Positions 13,182 through 16,547 of a DNA stretch of 57,624 nt are shown here, one piece after another. The DNA lies in NCBI GenBank assembly GCA_019120615.1, contig DWUT01000060.1:1-57624 (forward strand), written 5' to 3'. The notes below the pieces were generated by a model. The model was not told where the DNA came from. It did not search any database and saw only the letters and a list, made by a program, of their open reading frames with translations. Made by a program: the position numbers and the translations under genes. Numbering within the stretch: position 1 is the first letter of the stretch; every line of letters starts with the position of its first letter. Origin of the DNA: Candidatus Mediterraneibacter norfolkensis. Its GTDB lineage: Bacteria; Bacillota; Clostridia; Lachnospirales; Lachnospiraceae.

Positions 13182-13823
13182 TCACCGGAATTCCTCCGAC
13201 AGGGTCTCTCCTGTATATCGATTCTCCGCCATTCCCCAGTTCACTACCCGGAACCAGTCGTCGATATAGTCTGCCCGGAGATTATAATGCTTCAGGTAAT
13301 AGGCGTGCTCCCACACATCGATATTGAGGATGAGAGTCCGGGAGCGGATAAACGGCGTATTCTGATTCGCAGAGGTGACGATCTTCAGGCATCCCCGGTC
13401 CAGCACAAGCCATGCATAGCCGGAGCCGAAGACGGAGAGAGCTGCCTCTTTAAACTGTGCCCGGAAATTTTCCGGACTTCCGAACTGACAGGACATTGCC
13501 TTGAAGAGCCGGGGAGCTGAACAGGAAGAGCCCGGAGGAGTCATACTGTCAAAATAGAAACGATGATTGTATACCCCGCCTGCGCTATTGCGCAGCGGAG
13601 TCTGGAGATGGCAGGGGAGGCGGCGCCATATGGTGAGCAGTTCCTCCAGAGAGAACTTCTGAAGGGAGGGATTCTCCTCCAGAAACCGGTTGAGGTTGTC
13701 GATATAGGTCTGGAGATGGCGGTCGTGGTGCAGGTACATTGTCTCCTCGTCGATGAAGGGCTCAAGAGCGTCGTAAGAGTATGGGAGAGGTGTATTTATG
13801 AATGGATAATGGTTGTTTCTCAT
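13182..13823 (-). CDS. Fe/Mn-family superoxide dismutase
   Basis: MYLHHDRHLQTYIDNLNRFL...GGVYNHRFYFDSM...FGSGYAWLV...NIDVWEHAYYLKHYNLRADYIDDWFRVVNW. Confidence 0.88.
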   Translation of the reverse strand: MRNNHYPFINTPLPYSYDALEPFIDEETMYLHHDRHLQTYIDNLNRFLEENPSLQKFSLEELLTIWRRLPCHLQTPLRNSAGGVYNHRFYFDSMTPPGSSCSAPRLFKAMSCQFGSPENFRAQFKEAALSVFGSGYAWLVLDRGCLKIVTSANQNTPFIRSRTLILNIDVWEHAYYLKHYNLRADYIDDWFRVVNWGMAENRYTGETLSEEFR

Positions 13824-13930: not shown

Positions 13931-13959
13931 TTGACATTTGATGGAGGTGATGTTATAGT
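13931..13959 (+). promoter_or_regulatory. sigma-A type promoter
   Basis: TTGACA - 17 nt - TATAGT upstream of the ORF at 13993. Confidence 0.7.
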
Positions 13960-13992
13960 TCCAGTAGAGAGGAATTAACAGGAGAGAAGGTT

Positions 13993-15780
13993 ATGCAGGA
14001 AAGGCAGCGATTAGAAGGAGTATGGAAGGAATTTCAGAGATGGATGCCAATGGAACAGATTTTCCGATTATCATTTCTGCTGGCATTTGCATGGTATTAC
14101 GGAGACAGGAAAGTAATACTGAGCTCTTCCGGTGCGATGACACTGGATACGCTTGAAAAGAGTTTAAGCGATATTCAGGGATATGATGTCCGTGTCGCGA
14201 TCAGAAGACAGGCAGAAAATGTAAATTGGCAGATGCTGGAAAAGCAGGAAGTATATCGGCTTCTGGTGGAAGAACTCGATATTTTTTCTGAATATTATGA
14301 GCATGGCGGCATACCGAGGAAAATGTTTTCCATTCTTCTTGATCTGGCGGGGACAGGAGGGAAATATGCTGTCACTCCCCCTGATGTAAGGAAATTGACG
14401 GCGGATCTTCTGGGAGGAAGAAAAGTGAGAAAGCTGGCGGACCTTTGCTGCGGAGGAGCAGGTCTGGGCCTGGAATTGTGGGACAGACTGCGGCAGAGAA
14501 ACCCGGAGATCAGTTTTCACGGGGAAGACTGTGACAGAGACCTGTGCGATATGGCGTGTCTCCATTATTATGCTTATGGCGTTCCCGCAGGGGAGATTGA
14601 AGAGAATGATGTTTTGGCGATCCCGGATCCGGGAGAAAATCAGATGTATGACATGATCGTGATGGATGTGCCAAGAGGACGCAATATCACAGAAGAGTTT
14701 GATTACAGAGATCCGAGGCTGCCTTTTTTCAGCAAGAAAAAGATATATACTGACTGGATATTTATTCAGGATGCACTATACCGGCTGAACCGGGATGGAA
14801 CGGCGGCTGTGATCGTGACTGCGGGGGCACTGATACGAAAGAATGAAGAGAAACTCCGGGAGCAGATCATAGTCAATGACTGGCTTGAAGCAGTGATCAC
14901 CCTGCCCAATAATTTGTATCCGAAAGATCATACCGGAACGGAATTGCTTATTTTTAATAAGAATAAGTACAGAAAGGGAAAAACGATCTTTATAGATATA
15001 AGCAGATACTGCCGGCAGACGGGACGGAACTTTTCTGAGATATCAGAAGAAGGAATCAGGCTTGCGGAAAAATCATTCTGGAAATTCGAGGAGATCAGCG
15101 AAGTGAGCGCCGTATGCGATCAGAAACAGATTGCGGAAAACGGATATTCATTTAAACCGATCCAGTACATACGCCATGAAGGGGAGATGGAACCCGGAAC
15201 CGGGATCAGACTGGGGGATATCGCACAGATTGTCAGGGGGGCTCAGGTCCTGAAAAAGACTGATCAGAGAGACGATGGAGATGCGTACTTTATCAATATC
15301 AAAGATATCCAAAATAATCAGGTCTTATATGAACAGGCAGACAGAGTCATAAGACAAAGTTCGGTATGTAAAGAAAAATTCAGGATACGTCAGGATGACA
15401 TTTTGCTGACCTCAAAAGGAACGATTCTGAAAGCGGCGGTCATATCGGAAGAGCCGCCGGAGTCCTACATCAGTGGGAATATTACACTGATCCGGATAGA
15501 CCAGAAAAAATATGATCCATATGTTTTATTTGAATACCTGATCTCTGCGCAGGGACAGATCGCATTGGAACGCATACAGTCAGGAACCACAATCCGGATA
15601 CTGAGTAATGCGAATCTGCAGGAGCTGATGGTCCCGGATTACAAATTGATTTCCATGAAGAAGATCGGGGAACAGCTTAAGAAAAATCAGGTGACATACT
15701 ACAGGGAGCTGCGTGAGGCAGAGAAACGTTTTACGAAGGAAAAAAACAGGCTTTTAGAAGAACTGGAGGATTTGAGATGA
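13993..15780 (+). CDS. HsdM-like N6-methylase fold fused to an HsdS-like target-recognition domain; catalytic motif degenerate
   Basis: LADLCCGGAGLGLEL (motif I-like), YDMIVMDVPRGR where NPP[FY] is expected, VNDWLEAVITLPNNLYPKDHTGTELLIFNKNK (HsdM-like), then TRD IRLGDIAQIVRGAQ...FRIRQDDILLTSKGTI and a terminal coiled coil. Confidence 0.8.
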   Translation: MQERQRLEGVWKEFQRWMPMEQIFRLSFLLAFAWYYGDRKVILSSSGAMTLDTLEKSLSDIQGYDVRVAIRRQAENVNWQMLEKQEVYRLLVEELDIFSEYYEHGGIPRKMFSILLDLAGTGGKYAVTPPDVRKLTADLLGGRKVRKLADLCCGGAGLGLELWDRLRQRNPEISFHGEDCDRDLCDMACLHYYAYGVPAGEIEENDVLAIPDPGENQMYDMIVMDVPRGRNITEEFDYRDPRLPFFSKKKIYTDWIFIQDALYRLNRDGTAAVIVTAGALIRKNEEKLREQIIVNDWLEAVITLPNNLYPKDHTGTELLIFNKNKYRKGKTIFIDISRYCRQTGRNFSEISEEGIRLAEKSFWKFEEISEVSAVCDQKQIAENGYSFKPIQYIRHEGEMEPGTGIRLGDIAQIVRGAQVLKKTDQRDDGDAYFINIKDIQNNQVLYEQADRVIRQSSVCKEKFRIRQDDILLTSKGTILKAAVISEEPPESYISGNITLIRIDQKKYDPYVLFEYLISAQGQIALERIQSGTTIRILSNANLQELMVPDYKLISMKKIGEQLKKNQVTYYRELREAEKRFTKEKNRLLEELEDLR

Positions 15781-16547
15781 AGAAGATATTTATCAGTTAC
15801 AGTTCAAAAGACCAGAAGATGGTTGACAGTTTTATCGAATTTCTGCAGCTTGGCATGGGCATAAGGCGCCAGGACATTTTCTGTACAGCCTGCCCGGATA
15901 TGCTGGAAACAGGAAAAGCATTTATCGAAAAGATAAGGGAGTATATGCAGGAATGCGAAACCGTGATATTCGTTATTACGGAGCAATATTTAAAAAGTCC
16001 GTTCTGCCTTGTGGAAATGGGAGCTGCATGGGGATTGAGCAAGCAGTATTTTCCGCTTCTGACAGTGCCCTATGAAAAACTGAACAATACGCCTTTGATG
16101 GGGATACAGATGCGGAGACTGGACAACCAGGATGATCTGGGTATCCTGTATGATGAACTGCATCGGTGCGGTGTTCTTGACGAATACCATACAGCAGAAT
16201 TTAACAGAAGGGTGGCCGGATTTGTCGGGAGCGTTAAGGACAATCTGTCCGGAAATTATCTGATCGAGAAGGATGAAAATGGATACTATGAGACGACCAT
16301 AGAGAGTGTCCGCGAACTGTCTCAGAAGCAATACAGATGTTATGGTATCAAAGGACATATCGCTGATCCACCGGACAAGGAAAAAGCAAACAGCGACTGG
16401 CTTTTTTACTGGGGAAATACGTTCCCGGACCTGATGCCCGGAGACCGCGTGAGATTCAAGACTACGAAAACGAAGATCAATGTATTTCCGGATCTGGGAC
16501 GCGCCAGAAATATTTATCCGGACGACCTGAAGAAGATTGAGGGATAG
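15777..16547 (+). CDS. TIR-domain protein with uncharacterised C-terminal domain
   Basis: MKKIFISYSSKDQKMVDSFIEFLQ...ETVIFVITEQYLKSPFCLVEMGAAW; start overlaps the upstream stop by ATGA. Confidence 0.85.
   Translation: MKKIFISYSSKDQKMVDSFIEFLQLGMGIRRQDIFCTACPDMLETGKAFIEKIREYMQECETVIFVITEQYLKSPFCLVEMGAAWGLSKQYFPLLTVPYEKLNNTPLMGIQMRRLDNQDDLGILYDELHRCGVLDEYHTAEFNRRVAGFVGSVKDNLSGNYLIEKDENGYYETTIESVRELSQKQYRCYGIKGHIADPPDKEKANSDWLFYWGNTFPDLMPGDRVRFKTTKTKINVFPDLGRARNIYPDDLKKIEG

Follow-up and report, generated by a model that had tools for sequence, protein, structure and literature searches.

A fused HsdM-HsdS-like protein with a replaced methylase motif IV (hereafter MS) and a TIR protein are encoded by overlapping genes in the 57,624-nt stretch of Candidatus Mediterraneibacter norfolkensis DNA analyzed here (the window). 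We consider it probable, at roughly 60%, that the two genes form an abortive-infection unit in which MS would act as a sensor of DNA, or of an anti-restriction protein, that gates a TIR NADase. The observations on which this proposal is built are the domains of the two proteins, the coupling of their genes, their co-conservation and co-evolution, purifying selection on both, the replacement of motif IV in MS and the conserved residues of the TIR protein.

Gene Organization

Both genes and the features mapped within and directly ahead of them lie on the plus strand. The MS gene (13993..15780) encodes 595 amino acids and was delimited by its open reading frame, Pfam and PADLOC matches, an AlphaFold2 model and motif alignment. 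The TIR gene (15777..16547) encodes 256 amino acids, and its start shares the tetranucleotide ATGA with the MS stop, so that both reading frames and their junction are as the preliminary description gave them. Direct reading of the sequence places a purine-rich ribosome-binding site, AGGAGAGAAG (13980..13989), ahead of the MS gene. A candidate extended −10 promoter, TTGACA-17-TATAGT with a TG before the second hexamer (13931..13959), ends about 34 nt ahead of the MS ATG and was recognized purely as a consensus match, agreeing at 11 of 12 positions. The dedicated promoter proposed earlier is thus backed by a good individual site, but the region as a whole holds seven promoter-like sites where 5.5 ± 2.1 are expected by chance, which is not an excess. 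Since this strong candidate precedes the MS gene and the SOD gene upstream (13182-13823) is divergently oriented, the two genes are probably transcribed as a unit of their own.

The neighbors examined with Pfam comprise the SOD gene, a DUF1648 gene, an aldo-keto reductase gene and a DUF4317 gene. Neither an HsdR gene nor a second HsdS gene is found among them, in agreement with the preliminary description, and these surroundings form no evident defense island. The GC content of the pair is 45%, compared with 50% for the window, which places it at the 11th percentile of same-size stretches, a value that is not telling with regard to foreign origin. No clean empty site was found within the genus, where the downstream DUF4317 gene has shuffled neighbors.

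The MS Protein

MS contains an N6_Mtase-like core (residues 119-398, 14347..15186; Pfam PF02384, E 2.1e-36), followed by a single type I-like target recognition domain (TRD) at approximately residues 405-545 (15205..15627). The TRD was delimited by conservation and by the PADLOC Specificity_I models, the type I S models matching MS at approximately residues 405-564. The protein ends in a long helix in the AlphaFold2 model (residues 552-594, 15646..15774), with which the terminal coiled coil suggested earlier is compatible; the N6-methylase-like core and the single TRD are likewise borne out. The model has a mean pLDDT of 87.7 and was built from an alignment of 28 sequences that left out plasmid sequences. 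In Foldseek searches its fold resembles type I M subunits, PacII and CamA, and the best match is 7eew, an M subunit solved with Ocr (E 1.6e-22).

The adenine flipped out by an N6 methylase is stacked against the aromatic side chain of motif IV. At the motif IV position of MS, the sequence DVPRGRN (residues 225-231, 14665..14685) stands in place of NPP(F/Y). The same position reads D-(V/I/L)-P-x-G-x-N in all 14 MS proteins of the clade described below, while neighboring HsdM proteins have NPP(F/Y). The pattern D-x-P-x-G-x-N, including the aspartate and the second proline of motif IV, is therefore invariant in 14 of 14, and neither the first proline nor the aromatic residue remains. Because motif IV is replaced, MS has probably lost the ability to methylate, a reading drawn from this one motif that upholds the catalytic degeneracy proposed in the preliminary description. 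That the replacement is so uniform favors selection over decay. Motif IV is also altered in sister MS proteins that lie outside the clade, so the change seems to predate the partnership with TIR. An alignment of relatives places the motif I region at DLCCG (residues 150-154, 14440..14454); its Asp and Gly are kept in most MS relatives, which makes SAM binding plausible.

Within MS, conservation is highest in the TRD. Mean identity within the clade is 52% in the TRD region and 39% in the methylase core. This is the reverse of true HsdS proteins: in five type I operons of comparable gut bacteria, these are only 33-66% identical where the corresponding HsdM proteins are 71-95% identical. On these grounds the specificity of MS is apparently not diversifying, and the constant TRD points to a fixed ligand, which could be some widespread feature of DNA or else a protein, for instance a DNA mimic. 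The earlier suggestion that MS senses a modification is accordingly not favored in its simplest form, and neither is a sensor of variable sequence.

The TIR Protein

The window TIR protein matches Pfam TIR_2 (E 1.1e-10) and the PADLOC spbK model (E 2.7e-21), and its nearest solved structure is SpbK both by sequence (E 2.5e-15) and by fold (E 5.5e-7). In SpbK, replacement of the NADase residue Glu192 by Gln abolishes defense (PMC11984713), and mutation of Gly194 and Trp197 impairs assembly and NADase activity (PMC12847820). Glu80 of the window TIR (16014..16016) aligns with SpbK Glu192, and Gly82 and Trp85 align with the α-C assembly residues Gly194 and Trp197. All three are invariant across the TIR family, in agreement with the catalytic Glu that had been considered plausible.

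The AlphaFold2 model of the TIR protein (mean pLDDT 86.1, pTM 0.66) predicts, in addition, a five-strand, OB-like C-terminal β-barrel at residues 171-254 (16287..16538; pLDDT mostly above 90). The preliminary description, correct as to the TIR domain and its Glu, had missed this barrel. It is conserved in 13 proteins with a mean column identity of 44%, among them a larger TIR protein and a relative whose gene adjoins one for an HD-domain protein. To judge from the sequences the barrel is a mobile module, because larger TIR proteins (L165:6718-8010 and L152:1438-2763) end in the same barrel. An identity as a cold-shock domain, to which the pattern of the sequence had pointed, was rejected: one member gives a Pfam match at E 0.04, and profile comparison gives 20% probability over 22 columns. 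The HD-domain gene beside that relative (L162:6937-9242, genome G149) is dGTPase-like and possibly another partner for the effector.

Distribution and Co-conservation

The MS-TIR pair is found in at least 12 genomes including that of the window, from Lachnospiraceae and Emergencia. The nearest MS relative among 299 genomes of the family, in genome G085, is 48% identical and is likewise overlapped by the TIR gene. Nine further pairs (L039, L040, L043-L047, L053 and L054) came from an alignment-based scan of genome contigs, in which a single-sequence query had given no matches, and a whole-genome profile search added a twelfth (L163, in genome G824). By coordinates and junction sequences, the two genes of a pair overlap by as much as 38 nt or lie up to 31 nt apart (−38 to +31 nt). 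The 13 MS rows available when the tree was built group in one clade with support 100/100, and 11 of them have a TIR gene; L163 was added afterwards, bringing the clade to 14 MS proteins. Recurrence of the coupled pair in 12 genomes is more than expected by chance and answers in the affirmative the call for a co-conservation survey made in the preliminary description. None of the pairs inspected has an HsdR gene attached to it, so that the pair is not always encoded with one.

Pairwise distances of MS and TIR are strongly correlated (r = 0.94, Mantel p = 1e-4), a figure to which shared ancestry of the hosts contributes. Both genes are under purifying selection, with dN/dS between close pairs of 0.12-0.16 for MS and 0.06-0.16 for TIR. 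The pair is missing from nearly all sampled relatives, and no TIR of the window kind is found in the other 36 genomes of the same genus, indicating a patchy spread. In the plasmid and phage records searched, none covers 80% of MS, and the TIR matches there have other partners.

The association of the two genes is strong and not obligatory, neither part being strictly dependent on the other, because both occur alone. Two Blautia MS genes (L041 and L042) have no adjoining TIR gene, and genome G805 encodes a TIR protein (L161:8175-10157) that is 74% identical to the window TIR over the C-terminal domain, has an HTH protein upstream and, despite this closeness, is not accompanied by a clade MS anywhere in that genome. 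In the L040 pair the TIR gene encodes only 165 aa, without the barrel. Downstream of one TIR-less Blautia MS lie genes for an AAA_21 ATPase and an RloB-like protein (L042:4200-6182). A prophage-like contig (L171:1-7377) carries an MS relative (33% identity) with no TIR gene; upstream of it is a large gene that looks like HsdR and downstream a small HTH gene, as in L016.

Related Proteins and Resident Restriction Systems

Distant MS-like fusions adjoin HsdM-HsdS-HsdR sets at L026-L029, L031, L036, L038 and L056, where HsdR at unannotated loci was assigned from size and position. At one of these loci (L026:4596-15095), a SEFIR/TIR_2 protein is encoded directly upstream of the MS-like protein and the HsdM-HsdS-HsdR-like set. 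Because distant MS-like fusions sit with HsdM-HsdS-HsdR, and one of them with SEFIR, MS proteins seem to serve as a reusable component of loci related to restriction. The pair recognized in the preliminary description is real, but this wider family beside type I operons had escaped it.

Several other arrangements were encountered in these searches. Type I-like operons of gut Clostridia (L075, L078, L082, L092 and L095; for example L078:6945-14200) encode an MS-like protein followed by an 805-aa protein, a second HsdM and an HsdS; the 805-aa protein looks, on reading its sequence, like a fusion of an ADP-ribosylglycohydrolase and HsdM. SpbK-like TIR genes, with an N-terminal part and a TIR, are found within a type I restriction operon (L164:3918-10958) and within an apparent BREX-type or methylase operon (L145:2-3507).

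An HsdR-like gene is present elsewhere in 10 of 12 pair-bearing genomes and in 9 of 14 controls. The window genome has one such gene, a weak match (G000:C273), and none was detected in the pair-bearing genomes G085, which is a single contig, and G860. In view of these two genomes, a resident type I system was rejected as a requirement, and the pair does not seem to need one.

Comparison with Known Systems

SpbK, the anti-SPβ TIR NADase of Bacillus subtilis ICEBs1, is the nearest known relative of the window TIR by PADLOC, by profile and by fold, and shares with it the catalytic Glu and the two α-C assembly residues. In SpbK, however, sensor and TIR belong to one polypeptide, the N-terminal domain of which recognizes the portal YonE, whereas in the window protein the TIR begins at residue 3, a sensing N-terminal domain is absent, the C-terminal end is a barrel and MS is the partner. 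MS in turn resembles type I restriction-modification proteins, its core being like HsdM and its C-terminal part like one TRD of HsdS. It differs from them in the fusion of M and S, in having one TRD rather than the two variable ones of a separate HsdS, in the replaced motif IV, in the lack of an attached HsdR and in the conservation of its TRD. The MS-like accessory proteins encoded upstream of type I operons (such as L026, L027, L028, L029, L031, L036 and L038) have the same M-S fusion layout, and in most of them the first motif IV proline is also replaced, but they accompany HsdM-HsdS-HsdR rather than TIR and fall on other branches of the tree.

A precedent for a nucleic-acid-binding protein that gates a TIR NADase exists in the two-gene SPARTA system (a short Argonaute with TIR-APAZ). 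The arrangement proposed here would be similar, and the predicted fold of the window TIR resembles that of the SPARTA TIR; the pair, however, matches no Argonaute or APAZ model in Pfam or PADLOC, and its partner is N6_Mtase-like. Thoeris also includes a TIR protein, and the window TIR matches the ThsB model weakly (E 1e-5), but no ThsA-like partner occurs among the neighbors examined and the TIR is closer to SpbK. Parts of MS weakly match the Mad2 and Mad5 models of MADS, scoring far below the NCBIfam cut-offs (51 bits for MAD5, cut-off 400; 14 bits for MAD2, cut-off 720); MADS, moreover, consists of many genes, with Mad2 and Mad5 encoded separately, while the pair has two. The combination of an M-S fusion with TIR is unnamed in PADLOC 2023, in NCBIfam 2026 (where component matches alone are found) and in the openly accessible full texts searched, consistent with the failure of the preliminary description to recognize the architecture. 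Partner-gated TIR effectors are already known; we did not find a methylase-like partner described.

Proposed Mechanism and Alternatives

In the mechanism that we propose, MS would bind DNA, and probably still SAM or SAH, without methylating, and would hold or assemble the TIR protein that the overlapping gene encodes. Upon infection, MS would meet a trigger, most likely a state or structure of the invader's DNA. The TIR domains would then be gathered through the α-C surface, as in SpbK, and the assembled TIRs would cleave NAD+ so that the infected cell stops. The fixed, conserved TRD would fit a ligand that does not vary.

The main rival holds that MS is a guarded decoy: by mimicking a type I methylase, it would bait anti-restriction DNA mimics such as Ocr, the binding of which frees or activates TIR. 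The probable loss of catalysis while fold and TRD are conserved would suit such a role, as would the match to the Ocr-bound M subunit and the HsdR-like gene in 10 of the 12 pair-bearing genomes. Yet likeness to the M fold of 7eew is expected of any M protein, HsdR-like genes are common in the controls as well, and in G085 and G860 none was detected for a decoy to guard. We regard this explanation as unlikely, though it deserves more weight than any of the following. If MS were instead an active methylase with an altered motif, host methylation would silence TIR and unmethylated phage DNA would trigger it. The largely kept SAM motif, the invariance of the aspartate and second proline in motif IV and the whole N6 methylase fold of the model agree with this idea. 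It is weakened by the absence throughout the clade of both the first proline and the aromatic, by the substitution of Arg or Lys for the aromatic in several members, which by analogy with known N6 methylases would be unfit for stacking on adenine, and by a TRD that is not diversified. Overall, retained methylation strikes us as improbable.

A toxin-antitoxin-like pair serving stabilization or stress, with TIR as the toxin, MS as its inhibitor and no phage specificity, is only slightly easier to credit than an active methylase. The tight coupling of two genes and their patchy occurrence speak for it, and the solitary TIR of G805, which would need another inhibitor, has the HTH protein upstream. 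Against it, a protein of 595 aa that conserves its parts for DNA recognition greatly exceeds the size an inhibitor would need, and no mobile replicon with the pair appears in the plasmid or phage records searched. That the genes are accidental neighbors with no functional link could be argued from the two MS genes without TIR and the one TIR without MS, but 12 coupled pairs with correlated divergence, their genes overlapping or abutting throughout, already contradict it through co-conservation and make coincidence very hard to believe.

The two-gene abortive-infection unit may in turn belong to something broader. Tentatively, and with the odds somewhat against it, the pair could represent a new class of immune receptor, in which a non-methylating MS would recognize the DNA of an invader, or anti-restriction proteins, and activate a TIR NADase, within a wider MS family that has TIR, SEFIR and type I partners. 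Pseudo-methylases such as METTL14 act as scaffolds elsewhere. If the proposal is true, restriction enzymes would have supplied sensors to bacterial immunity as well as nucleases, and a methylase that stopped methylating would have become a detector of non-self for cell suicide. It would also suggest a role for the unnamed MS-like proteins beside many type I operons. Comprising just two genes, with a recognition domain that stays fixed, and frequent enough among gut bacteria to be studied, the MS-TIR pair would then offer a route to how the state of DNA becomes a loss of NAD+.
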